The position numbers and the translations under genes are program-made. A DNA stretch of 64,000 nucleotides, from positions 1 to 64,000 of the forward strand of contig NZ_JABBGA010000024.1 of the NCBI RefSeq assembly GCF_012927165.1. The letters are read 5' to 3'. Position 1 is the stretch's first letter, and every line of letters begins with the position of its first letter. The notes beneath the pieces are model-generated. The model had not been told where the DNA came from. It was given only the letters and a program-made list of their open reading frames with translations, and searched no databases. Below are positions 174 through 62,995 of the stretch, in pieces. This stretch comes from Zoogloea dura (GTDB taxonomy: Bacteria > Pseudomonadota > Gammaproteobacteria > Burkholderiales > Rhodocyclaceae).

Positions 174-530
174 GGATGTCACTGCCGGGCGCGCGGATCG
201 GGCTCACGTCCCGGCGGAATTGAGTTCCGCCATGCCGGAATTCAATTCCGTGACCCCGGATGTCAAATCCGCAGCGCGAGATGTCAAATCCGCGGGGCGA
301 TATCTCAAATCCGCAGCGCGAGATCTCAAATCCGCGGGGCGGGAACTGAGTTCCGCACCCGCGGATGTCAATCAAGCGGGGGCTGATGTCAGTTAAGCGG
401 CGGCTTAACTCACTTCCGCGCTCGCTTAACTCACTTCCGCACTCGCTTGACTGACATCCGTGGCCGCTTAACTCACTTCCGCACGGCCTGAAGTGACTTA
501 AGCGGGGGCGTGACTCAGTTCTGGCGGTGC
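174..530. repeat. 21-bp tandem array 1: 17 units of a variable imperfect-dyad repeat
   Basis: Seventeen consecutive 21-bp units start at 174, 195, 216 and so on to 510. Each has a 13-bp core of two 6-bp half-sites around a central C or G (NNRNNT-S-ANNYNN), then an 8-bp GC-rich linker. Units vary: GGATGTCAAATCC at 258, GGAACTGAGTTCC at 342, TTAACTCACTTCC at 405, 426 and 468, TTGACTGACATCC at 447. The second unit (195) is degenerate; all others keep the central T-S-A. Several cores are perfect or near-perfect palindromes (237, 342). Left half-sites come from a small set (GGATGT, AGATGT, AGATCT, GGAATT, GGAACT, TTAACT and a few variants). Because 21 is a multiple of 3, spurious open frames run through the first half on both strands. 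The array lies between converging genes and overlaps the 3' end of the leftward PEP-CTERM gene. The same grammar recurs at 61221-61472. Confidence 0.9.
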
Positions 531-1262
531 AGATCGGAGATCGGCCCGGGAAACCCTGCGTCGTCGCCCAAGGCCAGCGGCGGCGAGGCCTGCGCCGAGG
601 AGGGCCAGCAGCGGAGGTTCGGACACCACCGAGACCGGCATGTCGAGCGTGCCCCCTATCGAGAAGAAACGACCGGCCGCAGCGTTCAGGTCGGCAAGGG
701 CATCACCGTTCAGGCCGATTTCGTAGCCGCCGGACAATTGGCCGGTCACCACCTGTTCGGCGTAGCGCCTGCCGCTGCCGAGGTCGTCGTAGATCGATGA
801 GCTGGTGCCGGAGTTGGCATTGAGTGTCCGCGCATCGGTCGTGACATCGAACAAGGAATAGGTCATGGGAAAGGTGCTGGAGCCGATGCCTACGTCGTTG
901 ATGCGCAGCGCGGCACTGATGATGCTGCCCGGCGTGATGTTGGCCAGCGAGAAGGTGAAGAAGTTGCGGTGCAGCCAAATGGGGTCGAGGGGGTCGGGCT
1001 GCAGGGCGCCGACGTAGATGCTGTCGTTCGCGTCGAAGTTCGCGTTGTCGAACCCCCACCATCCCTGGTTGAGCGTGCCCGCCGTGAAGAGGCCCTGCCC
1101 CGTCGTCAAGGTGACGGTGCTGCCATTGCTCAGCCCGAGCACGAGATCCTGGCTGATGCCACTGGAGCCGGTCCCGGCGAAGAGGAAGCTCCCCGCTGCC
1201 GAGGCATGGGGGCTGGCGGCGAGCATGAGGGTCAATGCGGCGATGCGGAGAGTGGCTTTCAT
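498..1262 (-). CDS. PEP-CTERM-like exported protein
   Basis: A protein of about 254 residues of unknown function with an N-terminal signal peptide (MKATLRIAALTLMLAASPHASA). It has a Gly/Ser/Asn/Thr-rich beta-type body and a C-terminal sorting signal: SEPP, a hydrophobic stretch and then GRRRR. This is the PEP-CTERM layout (with SEPP for the usual PEP) recognised by exosortase; no exosortase is in the window. The start at 1262 is preferred over the ATG four codons upstream because GGAG lies five bases before it. The gene is odd at its 3' end. PEP-CTERM proteins normally stop soon after the basic cluster, but here about 18 residues follow it. The last ones are encoded by the 21-bp array, whose unit at 489 supplies the TAA stop. 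Confidence 0.75.
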   Translation of the reverse strand: MKATLRIAALTLMLAASPHASAAGSFLFAGTGSSGISQDLVLGLSNGSTVTLTTGQGLFTAGTLNQGWWGFDNANFDANDSIYVGALQPDPLDPIWLHRNFFTFSLANITPGSIISAALRINDVGIGSSTFPMTYSLFDVTTDARTLNANSGTSSSIYDDLGSGRRYAEQVVTGQLSGGYEIGLNGDALADLNAAAGRFFSIGGTLDMPVSVVSEPPLLALLGAGLAAAGLGRRRRVSRADLRSAPPELSHAPA

Positions 1263-18807: not shown

Positions 18808-21800
18808 ATGACGATGGCCGATGACGCCGCTTCGCCGCGCGTCCCCCCAGGCCCAGCCTACCAGTTGCTGTTCGAATCAGCCCCCGGCCTGTACCTGGTC
18901 CTGAACCCCGCGCTGACCATCGTCGCGGTGAACGATGCCTATGCCCGGGCCACCCGGACGTCCCGCGCCGGGATCGTCGGCAAGCCTCTTTTCGAGGTCT
19001 TCCCGGACAACCCCGACGACCCCGGCAACGAAGGCGTGCGCAACCTTCGCGCCTCCCTGAACCGTGTACTGCAGACCGGCCAGCCGGACGCGATGCCGGT
19101 CCAGAAGTACGACATCCGGCTCCCCGCCGAAGAAGGCGGCGGTTTTGAAAGCCGCTACTGGAGCCCGCTCAACACCCCCGTCCTGGCCCCGGACGGGCAG
19201 CTTTGCTACATCATCCACCGGGTGGAGGACGTCACCGACTTCGTCCGCCTCAAGCAACAGGGCATCGAGGAAGGCCGGCTCACCGAAGCCCTGCGCGAGA
19301 AGGCCCTGCGCATGGAGACGGAGGTCTTTGCGCGGGCCCAGCAGGTGGCCGACGCCAGCGCCCAGCTCAAGCGGGCCAACGAAGAGCTCGACAGCCTGTA
19401 CCGCAAGGCCCGGGAGCTGGACGAGCTCAAGACCCGCTTCTTCGGCAATGTCAGCCATGAGCTGCGCACACCGCTGACCCTCATCCTGGGCCCCCTCGAC
19501 CGGCTGCTCGCCTCACCACGGATCGATGCGGACGAGCGACGGGCCCTGCAGGTCATGCAGCGCAACGCCCGCCTGCTGCACCGGCAGGTGGACAACCTGC
19601 TCGACCTCGCCCGCCTCGACGCCGGCCGCCTGATCCTGCGCTACACGGAATTCGATCTGGCCTGGCGCCTGCGGGTGCTCGCGTCGAATTTCGACACGGT
19701 CGCCCACGACCGCCGGATCACCTACCTCGTGGCCGCACCGGACCGGCTGGAGATCCAGGCCGATGCCGAGAAATGCGAGCGTGTCCTGCTCAACCTGGTG
19801 GCCAATGCCTTCAAGTTCGTGCCCGACGGCGGCACCATCGGCATCCGCCTGGCCCTGGACGGCAGCGACCTGCAGATCGAGGTGGAGGACAGCGGGCCGG
19901 GCATCCCGGAGCACCTGCGCGAAGCCGTGTTCGAGCGCTTCCGCCAGGTGGAGGACGCCAGCGGACGGACCACCAGCGGCACCGGTCTGGGCCTGGCCAT
20001 CGTCCGCGAATTCGTCCGCCTGCACCATGGCCAGGTCTCGGTCGGCGCCTCCCCCCTGGGCGGGGCCCGCTTCAACATCAGGCTGCCCACCCAGGCGCCG
20101 CCGGGCGGCATCCTGCACCCGGCCGACAACCGCACCGGCCTGCCCCTGCCCGCCGAGGCCAGCGTGACCGACAACGCCCCGGTCGACCCCGCTCCGCTTG
20201 CCGGGCCCGGTGAGCATGCCCCGCTGATCCTCGTCGTCGAAGACAACCCGGACATGAGTGCCTTCATCGCCAACGCCCTGGCCCCGGCCTACCGGGTGGC
20301 CACCGCCTTCGACGGCCAGACCGGCCTGCGGCGGGCGCTCGAACTGCGGCCGGCGCTGCTGCTCTCCGATGTGATGATGCCGCTCCTCAGCGGCGACCGG
20401 ATGGTGGAGGCCCTGCGCCAGTACCACGACCTGGACGACATGCCGATCGTGATGCTGACCGCAAAGGCCGACGACGCCCTGCGCACCGCCCTGCTCCAGC
20501 ACCGGGTGCAGGACTACATCCAGAAGCCCTTCTCCATCGACGATCTGCTGGCCCGCATCGCCGGGCTGCTGCAGGAGCGCTCGCGCACCCGGCGGCGCCT
20601 GCGCAGCCTCGAAGAGCGTTTTCGGGCCACCTTCGAGCAGGCCGCCGTCGGCCTCGCCCACGTAGCCCCGGACGGCCACTGGCTGCGGGTCAACCAGAAA
20701 CTTTGCGAGATTGTCGGCTATGGCCATGATGAACTGCTGAGCCTCACCTTCCAGGACATCACCCACCCCGACGACCTGGACTCCGACGTCGGGCAGGTCC
20801 GCCGCCTGCTCGCAGGGGAGATCGACAGCTACGCCCTCGACAAGCGCTATCTCGGCAAGACGGGCAAGGAGATCTGGATCCATCTCACCGTGGCCCTGAT
20901 CCGCGACGACGACGGCACGCCCGACTACTTCATCTCGGTGGTGGAGGACATCCGCCAGCGCAAGGAGGCCGAGCACGCCCTGCGCGACAGCGAGGAGCGC
21001 TTCCGGCTGATTGCCGCGACCATCCCGGAGGTCATCTGGCTGGTCGATGTCAGCGCGGCGCGGGTGGCCTACGTGAGCCCCGCCTATGAAACGCTGTGGC
21101 AGAGCCCGCTGGAGTCGCTCTACACCAACCCCCAGGCCTACCTGGAGGCTCTGGCCCCGGCCGACCGCCGCCGCGTGGATGGAGAGAAGCGCGGCGCCAT
21201 CCGGGCCGGGCGGGATTTCGAACTCGAGTACCGCATCCTGCGCCAGGACGGGAGCACCCGCTGGGTCCGCGAGCAAGGGCACCCGGTGCCCGCCCGCGAC
21301 GGGCTTCCCACCCACTACGTCGGCCTGCTCACCGACATCAGCCAGATGCGCAGCAGCGAGGAGCAGGTGGCCCGCCTGGCCCACTACGACCCGCTCACCG
21401 AGTTGCCCAACCGGTTGCTGCTCCAGTCCCGCCTCGAACATGCCCTGGACCGGGCCCGGCGGGCCGGCCAGCGGGTGGCCCTGCTGTTCATCAACCTGGA
21501 CCACTTCCAGACCATCAACGACAGCCTCGGCCACCAGGCCGGCGACCTGCTGCTGGTGGAGGTGGCCCGCCGGCTGAGGCAACGGGCGCGCCAGGAAGAC
21601 AGCCTGGGACGCCTCGGCGGCGACGAGTTCCTGTTCATCCTGGAGTCGGTACGCCACCCGGAGACCGCCATCGAAGCGGCCCAGGCCGTCCTCGGGTCGA
21701 TCGCCGCCCCTGCCAGCCTGCCCGACGGCACCGAGCTCTACCTGAGCGCCAGCATCGGCATCAGCCTTTACCCGGACGACGGCCATTCCGCCCACGAGCT

Positions 21801-39752: not shown

Positions 39753-40805
39753 TCACGCCCGGGGCGTGGCGCTGGCCGCCAGGGCGGTACGCAGGGTGTT
39801 GCCGTTGATGATGCGGGCCAGCTTGTCGGCGTACATCGGGTCGGTGGCATAGCCTGCCGATTGCAGCCCTCGGGCAAAAGCCACCGCGTCGCCCTGCCCC
39901 GCCACGGCAGCATAGCGGGGATTGTTGCGGATCATCCGGGCATAGTCCTGGAATGATTCGGCATACGAGCCGTAGGCCCGGAAACGCGCATTCTCGCGGG
40001 TCGCCGCGCCGTCGCGGAATTCGGTGGTGGTGGTGGCCAGGGTTCCACCGGTCCAGTTGCGGCCGGCCTTGATGTTGAACAGGTTATGGCTGGGCGAGCC
40101 GTCGGCGTTCTTCAGCTCGTGCTTGCCCCAGCCGGTCTCAAGGGCAGCCTGGGCCACCAGAAAACGGGCGGGAATGCCCGTGACCCGGCTCGCCTCGACA
40201 GCCTGCGGCCAGATCTTTTCGACAAAGGCCCGCGGCCCGGCACCGGCAGGCAGGCCCGGAAAGGCGGCAAGGCCGGCAGAGGCCGCCGAAACGGCAGTTT
40301 TTGCCGGCGAACTTGCCGCTCCACCTGCCGTCCCGACTGCAACCCCACCTGCGGCGCCATTCACCCCCGCATAGCCTGACAGAGCGCTGCCGCCCGGCGA
40401 AGCAGCGGCATCAAAGCCGCGCTTGATGGCCGGATCGAGGGGAACCGCTTTGTCCGGACGACTCAGGGGCACCGGCCCGTCAGGCAGCACCACGGTTTCG
40501 CGGGCTGCCGAGAGCTGGCGCTCGATAACCTTGGCCAGGCCGATGCCGCCACTCCGGGTAGACAACTGCAGGGACAGCTGCTGGTCGAGCATGGACTGGT
40601 ACATGCGCGACTCTTCACTGTCGAACATGCCCCCCTTGGGGCTCGCGTCGCGCATGGACTTGAGGACCTGCTGCATGAACAAGGCCTCGAACTGCTTGGC
40701 CGCCTCCCGGGCTGCTTCGGGGGAATTCTCCTTCGACAGACGGCGCAGCCCCGACAGGCTGTTCGGATCGAGAGCATTGATCTGGCTGAGATCGCTGGCG
40801 GCCAT
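39753..40805 (-). CDS. flgJ: Flagellar rod cap and peptidoglycan hydrolase FlgJ
   Basis: 350 residues. The N-terminal rod-binding domain (about 10-110, with EAAKQFEALFMQQVLKSMRDASP) and the C-terminal glucosaminidase domain (about 195-345, with ARFLVAQAALETGWGKHE and NLFNIKAG) are joined by a long Ala/Gly-rich linker. It caps the growing rod and opens the peptidoglycan. The likely catalytic Glu is in LETGWG. The start overlaps the flgI stop by one base (TGATG). Confidence 0.95.
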   Translation of the reverse strand: MAASDLSQINALDPNSLSGLRRLSKENSPEAAREAAKQFEALFMQQVLKSMRDASPKGGMFDSEESRMYQSMLDQQLSLQLSTRSGGIGLAKVIERQLSAARETVVLPDGPVPLSRPDKAVPLDPAIKRGFDAAASPGGSALSGYAGVNGAAGGVAVGTAGGAASSPAKTAVSAASAGLAAFPGLPAGAGPRAFVEKIWPQAVEASRVTGIPARFLVAQAALETGWGKHELKNADGSPSHNLFNIKAGRNWTGGTLATTTTEFRDGAATRENARFRAYGSYAESFQDYARMIRNNPRYAAVAGQGDAVAFARGLQSAGYATDPMYADKLARIINGNTLRTALAASATPRA

Positions 40806-59279: not shown

Positions 59280-59674
59280 TCGCAATTTCCATTCTTAAAG
59301 AAACAATAACGAGAATATTCTTCCAAAAATCGACAAACCACAATCCACTATTGCAATTTCTGCCGCCAAGCCCGGTGCTACCATAAATCTGTCCTGACCC
59401 CCTTGGAGCACCGCCCGATGGCAGCCCCCTCTCCCCTTGCCGCCCGCCCTGACGCGTGGGGGTCACCCAGCCGATCCGCCTTGAGCATGCCGAGCCGGCG
59501 CATCGCCCACGCCCCCATTCCACCGCCAGTCCCCTGAGCGCCTGCCGCCATAAACGGCGGCCTTAACCCGATTCTTCCGTCATGGCCTTCCCAACGGCCA
59601 GGGAGAAGTCTTGCCCGCATTCCCACGGGCCCATCCAAGCAAGAGAGCCTCAACACATACAACAAGGAGGAGTC
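59280..59674. other. Long intergenic region between the Lrp gene and the DcaP-like porin gene
   Basis: About 395 bases without a supportable gene. The left 90 bases are AT-richer and hold a palindrome upstream of lrp. The hairpin GCCGCC-N6-GGCGGC is at 59544-59561. No near-consensus sigma-54 or sigma-28 promoter was seen. The strong AAGGAGGAG site of the porin gene lies at its right end. Open frames through it are low in coding character. Confidence 0.6.
59312..59321. promoter_or_regulatory. Candidate Lrp-type operator
   Basis: The perfect 10-bp palindrome AGAATATTCT, flanked by further A/T bases, resembles the core of Lrp/AsnC sites. It lies 33 bases upstream of the lrp ATG, in a position suited to autoregulation. 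Confidence 0.4.
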
Positions 59675-61075
59675 ATGAAGGCCAAGCAGATTTTCACCGC
59701 CCTCGTCATCGCCGGTCTCGGCGGCACGGGCAGCCTCGCCCACGCCGCCGGCCCGGACCGCATGGCGGAGCTGGAAACGCAGTTGAAGCAGTTGCAGGAA
59801 CAACTCGAGGCCCTGAAACGCTCAACGCCGAGCGCCCAGGAAGTCGCCGCCCTGCGCGACAAGGTGGCCAGCCAGGACAAACAGGCCGTGGTGGCGGGGA
59901 GCATCCCCAACTCCTTCCGCCTGCCCGGGTCGGAGACCTCGCTGCGCATCTATGGCAGCGCCGAACTGAACATGGTGCACGAGAGCAAGGGCGACAACAG
60001 CGCCAATGACTATTCCACCTTCACCCCCTTCATGCCCCTCAACGGCAGCCCCGAAGCGCAGCGCAAGGGACAGACCTACATGCACGCCCGAACCTCCCGC
60101 ATCGGCCTGGAGGCGGCCACCCCCACGCCATTGGGCCCTGCCTCGATGAAGATCGAGGGTGACTTCAACAACGACCCGCGCACCGGCAACTCGGCGGTCT
60201 ATGGCGACCTGCGCAACATCTACACCCAGCTCAACACCAACAGCTACGACTTCCGGCTGCGCCATGCCTACGTGCGGATCGGCGGTCTGCTGGTCGGCCA
60301 GAGCTGGTCCACCTTCATGGACGTCAATAACGCCCCGGAAACCGTGGATTTCAACGGCCCGATCGGCTCCACCTTCATCCGCCAGCCGCAGATCCGCTAC
60401 ACCCACAGCACCCAGGACTGGGGCGACTTCAGCGGCGCCATCGAAAACTCGGTGAGCTATGTGCTGGACAGCAGCGGACGCGCCACCACCGACGGCTTCT
60501 CCAAGGTGCCCGACCTCATCGCCCGCTGGGACAAGCGTTTCGACTGGGGCGCCCTGAGCCTGCGCACGGTGTCCCACGAACATCGCATCGAAGGCGCCCT
60601 CGGCAGCCAGGCTCGACGCGGCAATGGCTTTGCTGCCAGCGGCCAGATCAAGTCGATCGGCGACGACTTCTTCACCTGGGGCATCACCGGCGGCACGGGC
60701 ATCGGCCGCTACTTCAACATGATCCAGGGCGCCGCCTACGACAGCGTGCAGCAACGCATCGAGATGGAAAAGGCGGTCGGGGTGGTGCTCGGCTACCAGC
60801 ACAAGATCAGCGACAGCCTGCGGCTCAACGCCGTTTACGGGGCGCAGCGCACCTCCGACAACGATTACACCGACCTGGCCATCCGCAACGGCTTCGGCGG
60901 CGGCCAGTACGGCGTCAACCGGCGCATCAGCCAGTTCCACTTTGGCGGTATCTGGAACCCGGTAAAGGCCATGGACGTGGGCCTGGAGTACATCTTCGGC
61001 CGCCGCGAGACCTTGCTCGGCGAGAAGGGCGACATGTCACGCATCAACATGATGGTGCGCTACAACCTCAACTGA
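59675..61075 (+). CDS. DcaP-like outer-membrane porin
   Basis: About 466 residues. A signal peptide (MKAKQIFTALVIAGLGGTGSLAHAA) precedes a coiled coil (ELETQLKQLQEQLEALKR, about 30-70). An amphipathic beta-barrel follows (SLRIYGSAELNMV onward) and ends in an aromatic terminal strand (MVRYNLN). The N-terminal coiled coil with barrel is the layout of DcaP-type trimeric porins for dicarboxylates and similar acids. AAGGAGGAG precedes the ATG. A terminator follows 25 bases after the stop. The substrate is not evident; neighbouring genes concern amino acids. Confidence 0.85.
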   Translation: MKAKQIFTALVIAGLGGTGSLAHAAGPDRMAELETQLKQLQEQLEALKRSTPSAQEVAALRDKVASQDKQAVVAGSIPNSFRLPGSETSLRIYGSAELNMVHESKGDNSANDYSTFTPFMPLNGSPEAQRKGQTYMHARTSRIGLEAATPTPLGPASMKIEGDFNNDPRTGNSAVYGDLRNIYTQLNTNSYDFRLRHAYVRIGGLLVGQSWSTFMDVNNAPETVDFNGPIGSTFIRQPQIRYTHSTQDWGDFSGAIENSVSYVLDSSGRATTDGFSKVPDLIARWDKRFDWGALSLRTVSHEHRIEGALGSQARRGNGFAASGQIKSIGDDFFTWGITGGTGIGRYFNMIQGAAYDSVQQRIEMEKAVGVVLGYQHKISDSLRLNAVYGAQRTSDNDYTDLAIRNGFGGGQYGVNRRISQFHFGGIWNPVKAMDVGLEYIFGRRETLLGEKGDMSRINMMVRYNLN

Positions 61076-61099: not shown

Positions 61100-61128
61100 A
61101 AGGCCATTCCTCCGGGGATGGCCTTTTT
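61100..61128 (+). terminator. Rho-independent terminator after the porin gene
   Basis: AAGGCCAT (61100-61107) pairs with ATGGCCTT (61118-61125) around a ten-base loop, followed by a T5 run. It marks the left edge of the non-coding interval that contains array 2. Confidence 0.82.
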
Positions 61129-61220
61129 GCTGGTGCGTGACGCAGAAAAGCCACGCCGTGATGCAGACCTCCGCCGTCCAGCTCGAGCACCGGAGGCGCG
61201 GAAAGCTGTGCGCGGAGGCG

Positions 61221-61472
61221 TTTACTCAATGTCGGTGGCGGCTAACTCAAATCCGCGGTGGCGGATGTCAGTTAACGGACTCCGGATGTCAGTTAACGAG
61301 TCGCGTAACTGAGTTAACGGATCGAAGATGTCAGTTAACGAACTGAAGATGTCACTTCCGCAGATCGTTAACTGAGTTATTCGATGCGTTAACTCAGTTA
61401 CGCGATCGGTTAACTGAGATCTGCGATGCGTTAACTGAGATACGCGACGCGTTAACTCAGTTAGCCGGCAGC
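61221..61472. repeat. 21-bp tandem array 2: 12 units of a variable imperfect-dyad repeat
   Basis: Twelve consecutive units start at 61221, 61242, 61263 and so on to 61452, with no indel in 252 bases. Cores (13 bp) follow NNRNNT-S-ANNYNN, for example GGATGTCAGTTAA (61263, 61284), GTAACTGAGTTAA (61305), AGATGTCACTTCC (61347) and TTAACTCAGTTAC (61389). The first unit deviates at position 3. Linkers (8 bp) are GC-rich and not conserved. TTAACT is the commonest half-site: it opens the last five units and, in reverse complement, closes several others. Stops occur in all frames through GTTAAC, so the array is non-coding. It lies between a plus-strand terminator (61100-61128) and a minus-strand terminator (61533-61566) of converging genes. 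The half-site set is shared with array 1 at 174-530. Confidence 0.92.
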
Positions 61473-61532
61473 GGGTGGGGAGTGTCAGTAATTTTGTGTT
61501 CGAGGCGGCTTTTCACCTGCCCTTCCACCATG

Positions 61533-61566
61533 GAAAAAGCCACCGTCCCGGAGGACGGTGACCTTT
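61533..61566 (-). terminator. Rho-independent terminator after the amino-acid permease gene
   Basis: On the minus strand an 8-bp stem CACCGTCC/GGACGGTG with a four-base loop is followed two bases later by TTTTT. AAAAGG on the other side gives a possible weak terminator in the opposite direction. It lies 30 bases after the permease stop at 61598. Confidence 0.78.
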
Positions 61567-61597
61567 TCGATGGTCGCGAGGCAGCCTGGGTGCGGCG

Positions 61598-62995
61598 CTA
61601 CGACTCCTGAGCGGCCGGCGTGGCGGCAGGTTTGCGGGTGAGGTGGAAGCTCAGCACCAGCAGGAGGATGAAGGGAATGCCGAAGGCCAGCGTCATCCGG
61701 AACACGTCGGTAAAGGCGGTGGTGACCAGTATCGCGAGCATCAGGCCAGCCCCCAGCAGGGTCGTCACCGGGAAGAACTTCATCTTGAAGGGCAGCTCCA
61801 GCCCGCCCCGCTTGTCGTGATGGCGGCGGAAGCAGTAATGGGTGACGAAGATCATCATCCAGGTGAACATGGCGCCGAACATGGACAAGGACATCATCAA
61901 GGTGAAGGCCTTTTCCGGGAACAGCACATAGATCACGGTGGCCAGGGCGATGCCGGCGGTGGACAACATGAGCGCATTGAAGGGAATGCCGTTCTTGTTG
62001 AGGACACCGAGGGCTGCCGGTGCATCGCCTCCGCGTGACAGGCTGAACATCATGCGGGTGGTGATGTAGAGCATGCTGTTCATGGCCGACAGGGCCGCCA
62101 CGATCACCACGAAGTTGAGGATGTCGGCCGCGTAGGGAATGCGCAGCACCTGCATCACGGTGACGAAGGGGCTGCTGCCTTCACCGATGCGGTCCCACGG
62201 CACGATGGCCAGGATGATCAGCAGGGACAGCAGGTAGAACAGCACGAGGCGGGCCATGGTCGCGCGGAATGCCTTCTTCACCGCGACGGCAGGGTTCTCC
62301 GCTTCGCCGGCGGCCACCGCGATCATCTCCACGCTGAGATAGCTGAAGATGGAGATGACCACGGCGATCCACATGCCCCACACGCCCTTGGGAAAGAAGC
62401 CTCCGTGCGCGGTGAGATGCTGCGTGCCGTATTCCGGGCTGCCGCTGCCCCACACCACGTAGGCGCCGAGCAGGACGAAGCCGACGATGGCGAAGATCTT
62501 GATCGTCGAGAACCAGTATTCCACCGATCCGAAGGCCTTTACGCTGGCCGCGTTGACGCCGATCAGCAGCCCCGAGAACAGGACGATCCAGATCCACGAT
62601 GGAACGCCCTTGAACCAGAACTGCATGTAGTCGGCCACCGCGGTCACCTCGGTGCCCACGGCCATGACGATGCAGGCCCAGTAGGCGTAGCGGACCAGGT
62701 AGCCGGCCAGCGGGCTGATGTAGTGCTCGGCATAGGCGCCGAAGGAGCCGGAGGTGGGGTGGGCGACCGTCATCTCGGCCAGGCAGCCCATCAACAGCAG
62801 GGTGATGAAGCCGCTGATGGTGTAGCTCAGCAGCACGCTGGGGCCGGCAAAGCCGATGGCGAACTTGCTGCCCATGAAGAGGCCTGTGCCGATGGCACCG
62901 CCGATGGCGATCATGCTCATTTGCCCGGCGGTGAGGCGGCGCTGCAGGCCCTCCTCCCGTTTTGAAATATGCTCGAAGTCTCTCGATGTGCTCAT
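61598..62995 (-). CDS. Amino-acid permease (APC superfamily, AAT type)
   Basis: 465 residues with 12 predicted membrane helices. The N-terminal LQRRLTAGQMSMIAIGGAIGTGLFMGSKFAIGFAGPSVLLSY is the signature of proton-driven amino-acid permeases (ProY, AroP, LysP, GabP group). AGAGGAG precedes the ATG. It follows kynU by 59 bases on the same strand, so tryptophan, kynurenine or another aromatic or related amino acid is the likely substrate. This is inferred from context. Confidence 0.9.
   Translation of the reverse strand: MSTSRDFEHISKREEGLQRRLTAGQMSMIAIGGAIGTGLFMGSKFAIGFAGPSVLLSYTISGFITLLLMGCLAEMTVAHPTSGSFGAYAEHYISPLAGYLVRYAYWACIVMAVGTEVTAVADYMQFWFKGVPSWIWIVLFSGLLIGVNAASVKAFGSVEYWFSTIKIFAIVGFVLLGAYVVWGSGSPEYGTQHLTAHGGFFPKGVWGMWIAVVISIFSYLSVEMIAVAAGEAENPAVAVKKAFRATMARLVLFYLLSLLIILAIVPWDRIGEGSSPFVTVMQVLRIPYAADILNFVVIVAALSAMNSMLYITTRMMFSLSRGGDAPAALGVLNKNGIPFNALMLSTAGIALATVIYVLFPEKAFTLMMSLSMFGAMFTWMMIFVTHYCFRRHHDKRGGLELPFKMKFFPVTTLLGAGLMLAILVTTAFTDVFRMTLAFGIPFILLLVLSFHLTRKPAATPAAQES

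Follow-up and report, generated by a model that had tools for sequence, protein, structure and literature searches.

Genes for REP-associated tyrosine transposases (RAYTs) adjoin their own type of palindromic repeat, and in plasmid iterons and parS/stbS-like centromeres, sites spaced by some two turns of the helix precede the gene whose product binds them. REP and BIME repeats occur as copies dispersed between genes, with several types per genome, and the GTAG-1 repeats of Thauera sp. MZ1T, which were drawn from a tandem-repeat database, have 5-bp stems, are largely clustered and form arrays that flank EPS genes (available part of PMC3733652). Ends of the IS256-family element ISRm5 lie beside intergenic dyads according to a table of insertion sequences in REPs (PMC1525189). 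Our literature search, outside which most subscription papers lay, returned no account of 21-bp dyad arrays in Zoogloea.

The array considered here lies in the window, that is, the whole stretch of 64,000 nucleotides of Zoogloea dura that was analysed (Table 1). Its core reads DKAWBT-S-AVWTMH and is followed by a G+C-rich 8-bp linker. A scan of the window recovered 11 consecutive cores NNRNNTSANNYNN at exact 21-bp steps (61242, 61263 ... 61452), all eleven of which carry the pattern NNRNNT-S-ANNYNN (61242-61472), and the register is intact across this interval with zero indels. The original prediction had counted twelve exact units; eleven of these stand, whereas the unit at 61221 (TTTACT C AATGTC) agrees with the pattern at just three of five positions, so that the twelve become eleven plus one degenerate unit. 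Runs of at least three were found in the window at period 21 only (periods 14-39 scanned), with lengths of 15 (from 216) and 11, and chance did not produce runs as long as the focal one, since the longest 21-bp run in 200 first-order Markov simulations of the window was three. A coding reading, under which 21 bp would equal seven codons, was rejected because ORFs 61118-61312 and 61137-61346 enter the array and both stop within it. The two terminator-like hairpins that flank the array are absent from the output of a consensus terminator scan. Using the permease flank, no ortholog of the focal locus was detected in the 22 other genus genomes, which gave weak partial matches only. Inside the permease gene, positions 61754-61825 match the Rfam model IRES_Bip with a score of 22.5 against a gathering value of 40, most likely by chance.

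Table 1 Features of the focal locus, of the second array in the window and of contig C26 from the same genome (G000).
Feature	Position	Strand	Remarks
Focal type-A array	61221..61472	.	11 exact 21-bp units, cores at 61242+21k, degenerate unit first
Focal array as imperfect palindrome	61236..61473	.	~238 bp, 77% identity to its own reverse complement; minus-strand self-match
Second type-A array of the window	174..543	.	15 exact consecutive units from 216; end units weaker
DcaP-type outer membrane porin gene (left neighbour)	59582..61075	+	PF19577, E 6.9e-26; ends 145 bp short of the array
Amino-acid permease gene (right neighbour)	61598..62995	-	PF00324, E 2.3e-101; converges on the array
Terminator-like hairpin and T run, after the porin gene	61102..61129 (about)	+	Read by eye
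Terminator-like hairpin, between the permease gene and the array	61534..61567 (about)	-	Read by eye
Solitary IS256-family terminal inverted repeat, 29 bp	61480..61508	+	Right-end type; tip faces the array; no element read behind it
Nudix-type gene	C26: 35209-35673
Repeat, next in order	C26
Type-A array	C26: 36478-36721
Histidine kinase ORF	C26: end at 40750
P gene	C26: at 40878

The family to which this array belongs, here called type A, is present at no fewer than 16 loci in the genome of the window (G000), both window arrays counted, as established by a DNA search of that genome and then by a sequence-only model (five cores; 56 rows from both strands of 28 segments). With 22 other genomes the genus set comprised 23 genomes, and the model searches scored at most 150 candidates per genome, so that all type-A counts are lower bounds. 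Confinement to the focal site and positions 174-530, which would have counted against the original prediction, is contradicted by the genomic copies and by those in two more Zoogloea genomes. One of these two, G011, has arrays of 10-16 units, compared with 11-18 in G000, where only L021 (on C29), a near-copy of window 174-543 minus eight units, is as short as four; the other, Zoogloea sp. SB3, has one type-A array in common with G000 (L178). A search at the level of the family with the type-A model, with stricter filters and nine genus genomes sampled, returned one of 249 genomes, namely the array's own, G011 not being among the matches listed, and plasmids and phages gave no array match at E<=1e-3. 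The predicted setting between converging genes holds for 8 of 16 type-A loci, but five others are tandem, two divergent and one undecided, with orientations taken from ORF heuristics (ORF length and codon-position G+C; Pfam for 33 neighbours). Two arrays show irregularities of their own: L007 has two extra units out of register at one end, the sole phase break seen, and L004 (G000:C1, about 19265-19571) shows a 42-bp higher-order repeat in which GGATGTC and GGATTTG units alternate.

The consensus core of 290 type-A units (column statistics without L007, L012-L014 and L021) is D-K-A-W-B-T-S-A-V-W-T-M-H, and the linker is rich in G+C. G or T occupies position 2 in 99% of units and A or T position 4 in 98%, the centre is always C or G, and A3, T6, A8 and T11 each reach 91-95%. 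Free exchange of A with T and of C with G at positions 4, 7 and 10 would fit a reading of DNA shape or of the minor groove. The two half-sites of a unit do not covary, with 3.445 of 6 positions matching compared with 3.515 after shuffling within arrays, and position 5 matches less often than when shuffled (0.248 vs 0.350). This lack of covariation argues for recognition of each half by one subunit and against a hairpin within each unit, a candidate that the same test does not support, position 5 even avoiding complementarity.

A different structural reading, in which the array would act single-stranded as one long RNA or DNA stem of mirrored units, draws on the focal array itself. Folded as a single stem, this array reaches -137.6 kcal/mol as RNA (z -13.6) and z -14.7 as DNA, and its units stand in mirror order (p 0.0005), unlike those of most other arrays. 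When each array is taken singly, mirror order reaches p<0.05 in just two of the 20 of type A, counting the focal one, and in two of 23 others; pooling leaves a slight excess, with a Fisher chi-square of 59.8 (40 df) for type A, again with the focal array, and of 66.6 (46 df) for the others. A long mirrored hairpin was thus rejected as a general feature, being clear in the focal array and at most a slight excess elsewhere, and the absence of covariation between halves, with complementarity avoided at position 5, also counts against it. We consider an active single-stranded form very unlikely; it seems possible that the focal palindrome arose by inverted duplication.

Comparison of orthologous arrays provides a view of how the units change. 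In G011, type-A arrays occur on at least six contigs, and all six that were fetched are orthologous to G000 arrays, with flanks 81-94% identical. Four ortholog pairs were aligned unit by unit, giving 48 unit pairs with gaps taken as whole units; the units follow one another plainly in L006/L023 and L019/L024, less so in L018/L022 and L003/L025, and the mostly identical pair L008/L026 was left out. Core positions 2, 4, 7, 10 and 12 had 41 changes, comprising 40 transversions and a single transition, and 38 of the 41 stay inside two-letter alphabets (G/T 6/6, A/T 15/17, C/G 10/10, A/C 7/8), although this test is not independent, since the five positions were chosen by their two-letter alphabets in largely the same arrays. 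The eight linker columns of the same unit pairs had 145 changes, of which 55 were transitions, and transitions are common at core positions 1, 5 and 13. The disparity between core (1/41) and linker (55/145) suggests that the unit grammar is probably under selection, and an exchange of G with T that leaves out G with A does not look like unconstrained change. Between L018 and L022, 266 array bases align gap-free at 68% identity, and the flanks require gaps. The comparison of orthologs therefore supports the predicted constraint on both spacing and dyad grammar.

Weak hits of the type-A model (L012-L014, in congeners) and the outer flanks of IS256 ends led to 21-bp arrays with other units. The genus has many families of 21-bp dyad arrays whose units are unrelated, type A being one of them, and the phenomenon is wider than originally predicted, being a class present in many Zoogloea genomes with differing unit sequences. 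In a 799-kb sample of G000, chosen by place, 21 is the commonest tandem period together with its double, 42: a strict threshold gave seven stretches at 21, six at 42, two at 12 and one each at 18 and 41, and a looser one gave nine at 21. We take these nine to be six non-coding dyad arrays of other types and three coding heptads. The hits of other periods that were inspected all lie in stop-free frames of at least 197 codons; among them, the period-41 stretch L134:12079-12574 (G000:C11), which has an open frame, is the sole strong hit whose period is not a multiple of three. Some of the six arrays are open in a frame and L115 and L123 are closed; several arrays of other types have at least one open frame, and we take them as non-coding from their dyads and context. 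Dyad symmetry is 0.41-0.62 in most of 27 stretches, compared with medians of about 0.19-0.31 for other centres, and is lowest in type B (0.31-0.38), L049 (0.32), L071 (0.38) and L044 (0.40 vs 0.31, the array being poorly caught). In three congeners (709 kb) two such arrays were counted, G013 having both and the G006 part none, and 380 kb sampled from other genera of the family, an amount too small to rule them out, contained no 21-bp dyad array at threshold 0.5 (one N-reading locus omitted). A model of the K/M type matched 5 of 23 genus genomes at E<=1e-6 (G000, G003, G007, G011 and G017), at several places in most of them.

These observations bear on whether the arrays could be neutral minisatellites that grew by slippage, their grammar reflecting no more than the shared descent of the units. 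Units are indeed lost or exchanged in multiples of 21 bp, as between window 174-543 and L021 (eight units) and between L008 and L026. Such a process would leave unaccounted for the prominence of period 21 across unrelated, dyad-symmetric unit families, the restricted substitution between orthologs and the persistence of arrays at orthologous places whose flanks have fallen to 81-94% identity; the neutral reading is already disfavoured, and we hold it to be highly improbable.

Comparison of the flanks of K/M arrays led to the recognition of a gene, P, that recurs next to arrays of differing types. The predicted product is basic, has about 120 residues and carries the conserved basic end YGxDSDQVAALGLKKKSERK. 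Searches returned nothing convincing in Pfam (40 members; two families with one member each, E 0.005-0.007), NCBIfam (3 members) or PHROGs (3), the best PDB match by single sequence and profile was unconvincing (E 0.17), and plasmids, phages and viral contigs gave no match. A single query sequence yielded 61 P matches; the 15 genus genomes (of 23) with any match have two to eight each, which is of the same order as the roughly eight array families distinguished in G000. Fifty-two of the 61 loci were read and nine left unread. A 21-bp dyad array lies within 1 kb upstream of P at 35 of the 50 loci with at least 400 bp readable (detector 0.5), and downstream at 0 of 51; the background in one-kb tiles is about 1% (8/799, 3/707 and 0/380). 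The upstream count depends on the detector, with 37/52 (loose), 34/52 (the set used for P and array similarity), 35/50 (strict) and 41/50 (loose), the loose detector having a background of 23/799 tiles. Periods other than 21 occur upstream of P at no more than 2 of 52 loci, and when kin are counted once (clusters at 75% identity), 23 of 29 P clusters have an upstream array. Unlike the converging setting of the focal array, those upstream of P genes are not flanked by two gene ends.

Similarity between P proteins follows similarity between their arrays (Mantel r 0.47, p 0.0005, n=34 loci), near relatives having similar arrays and distant paralogs unrelated ones; for P pairs below 75% identity, r is only 0.18. 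The P family is a concrete candidate for the array-binding protein family that had been postulated from the focal dyads. Two further observations concern individual P loci. At L434 (G000:C32:28047), close to a contig end, the 5' part of the P gene is replaced by short repeats GGCTCCATTRYGCCGATC, probably the end of another insertion sequence. A promoter-like stretch, ATGGRATYCTAGTATC, is common to L425, L027 and L017, where it immediately precedes P genes as well as the peptidase gene that neighbours a type-A array.

The explanation that we favour, with a probability of roughly 0.5, is that each array is a platform for dimer binding by a family-specific trans-acting factor, for which P is the best candidate. 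The evidence comprises exact phasing, dyads, restricted substitution, persistence at orthologous places, dispersed copies and the position of an array on the promoter side of P. One dimer would bind each 21-bp unit, all on the same face of the helix, and 11-16 dimers could join along the array DNA. The genus would then possess a set of array families, each with its own trans-acting factor. The own-type array present upstream of most of the P genes that were read may serve autoregulation of P, and at the same-type copies scattered among other genes, as seen for A and K/M, the bound protein could make the array, the focal one included, an insulator, silencer or chromosome-organising site. We regard it as likely that some sequence-specific protein binds the arrays, and that P, or a complex with P, is the putative binder has about even odds. 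More tentatively, and with the odds somewhat against so full a picture, Zoogloea might harbour several parallel pairs of array and protein that diversify selfishly or functionally, with dyad recognition specific to each P paralog and based on a fast-changing reading of half-sites, centromere-like or insulating complexes at scattered arrays and a replaceable unit family at a fixed place, as 3' of the Nudix-type gene described below.

The binder might instead be a protein other than P, such as a nucleoid protein or a set of regulators, with P merely a target or passenger whose promoter the array controls. We consider this rather unlikely. It would accord with the lack of a known DNA-binding domain among the matches of P, with arrays in some genomes that have no P match, and with the placing of the array, if present, on the promoter side, yet the similarity of arrays kept among close P relatives speaks for P itself, and a single regulator would not fit paralogs that have different unit sequences.

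The unit family at a given chromosomal place can differ between genomes. One such place is beside a gene (L003:1610-2074) that we take, from its motif, to be of the Nudix type, and which has matches in 11 of 23 genus genomes. Seven genomes have an array 3' of this gene, from three unit families. In G000 and G011 the array is of type A, preceded in G000 by a ~650-bp repeat; in G003 and G017 it is of type M, with an IS256 end and a palindrome before it in G003; and in G001, G002 and G021 it is of type T, whose units contain GTAG/CTAC. No array is seen there in G006, G004 and G008, and the contig of G022 stops at this point. The gene on the far side is not the same across the A, M and T groups of genomes. 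Units of L012 in G022 are hybrid, one half being T-like (GTAGT) and the other A-like (ACATC), which suggests that units change one half at a time. The type-A array at a second place, L018, is present in G000, G011 and SB3; G003, G004 and G008 showed no upstream array.

In G000, the Nudix-type place is followed by a P gene (Table 1), the intervening histidine kinase ORF having PAS and HisKA domains by Pfam and a receiver at its end read by eye. In G001, G002 and G021 the order is Nudix-type gene, type-T array and then a P gene whose product is 67-72% identical to that at G000:C26:40878. P genes that are counterparts at one place thus accompany different families of units, which is what a joint change of protein and array would lead one to expect. 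On C194 of G011, a type-A array is followed by a peptidase gene and another P of the C26:40878 cluster. The cognate of type A is most likely the P encoded at G000:C26:40878, judging from this gene order; the weakest point of the assignment is that type-A P genes have no array directly upstream, one gene lying between array and P.

Several arrays adjoin ends of an IS256-family element, which raises the question of whether mobile DNA made them. Complete elements with a Transposase_mut transposase are present in congeners, and G000 contains no transposase copy at E<=1e-30, though solitary ends persist (61480-61508, L030:1507-1535, L002:2890-2918 and others). A model of the end gave at least 66 hits in 17 of 23 genus genomes, from which 50 distinct ends were kept by a stricter pattern and at least 100 bp outside (ten shorter rows dropped). 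Several other ends adjoin terminator-like hairpins or GTAG-type palindromes, by eye. The tips of the inverted repeats face the arrays from outside, and the array is not situated between the two ends of the element. In addition, a palindromic repeat of ~650 bp (starting TTGGATTGGCCGGGATTTCGCCCCGGCGGGCGAC; for example L006:3290-3900) follows many arrays in G000, with copies next to no fewer than 11 of type A; the orthologous array L024 of G011 lacks it.

Such associations would be expected if the arrays were REP-like repeats with no role in binding, maintained and moved by recombination and serving as landing sites for the element and other repeats. A 21-bp array stands outside 24 of the 50 ends, or 17 of 43 once the seven to which arrays had led are set aside (arrays called above the 99% quantile of 400 window segments), and ISRm5 is listed as 5/7 in the table of insertion sequences in REPs (PMC1525189). 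Insertion in register with the dyads is possible: in 6 of 8 type-A arrays (window, L002, L004, L005, L006 and L178) the tip is 1-3 bp (mod 21) beyond the centre of a core, and in the other two (L023 and L025) it is at 12 (Rayleigh p 0.16), with no clustering among 17 ends of all types in an automatic analysis in which dyad centres are ambiguous (p 0.86). Nevertheless, arrays exist without IS ends and IS ends without arrays, and when 148 distinct flanks from named relatives of the element were scanned, three exceeded the threshold at period 21, namely a 7-base repeat and two dyad arrays, both in Zoogloea. The REP-like reading also leaves the restricted substitutions and the association with P unexplained, and we judge it quite unlikely. 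As the origin of the arrays, the element was rejected: with copies that lack arrays, arrays that lack ends and named relatives outside Zoogloea free of arrays, it looks like a passenger. The IS256 ends and the 650-bp repeat seem to use the arrays as landing places. In L101 (G010:C38), the left flank of a type-B array is joined to a gene that in G000 comes after a type-A array, and flank comparison suggests a rearrangement across an IS256 copy.

Returning to arrays as platforms for a dimeric, family-specific protein, the findings point to a so far undescribed system that pairs DNA arrays with small proteins. If this is correct, these bacterial chromosomal arrays would combine satellite-like fast evolution with a strict helical grammar, each accompanied by a co-diverging small protein, and would offer a bacterial model for a joint change of specificity in a DNA-binding protein and its many sites. 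P would represent a new protein family, and the pairs of array and protein could possibly be orthogonal tools for tagging or organising DNA.

Among described systems, the plan of CRISPR, a conserved repeat with unique spacers, does not apply, since the repeat here is variable and the linkers are 8 bp, and a Pfam scan found no Cas protein among the nearest neighbours of type-A arrays. The likeness to ISRm5 concerns the solitary inverted repeat at 61480-61508 and not the array. Type T can be set beside GTAG-1 by description, its units containing the same tetranucleotide, but the available part of the GTAG-1 description (PMC3733652) includes no 21-bp period, partner gene or switching of unit families. 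With REP/BIME and RAYT the P genes and arrays have in common a gene family beside its own repeat type, scattered copies and several types per genome. They differ in that P is a 120-residue protein with no convincing similarity to any model searched, and in that the repeats form strict tandems of 21-bp dyads whose half-sites vary; neither the GTAG nor the CGTC tag of REPs appears in the column frequencies of the 290 type-A units, and type-A halves, being no more complementary than shuffled ones, give no support for the stem-loop of REPs. Iteron and operator arrays are similar in having the array upstream of the gene for the binder, which in the case of P is putative. Unlike iterons, the Zoogloea arrays have dispersed chromosomal copies, many paralogous types per genome and units that are highly variable within an array, together with a protein family that has no match in the libraries searched.
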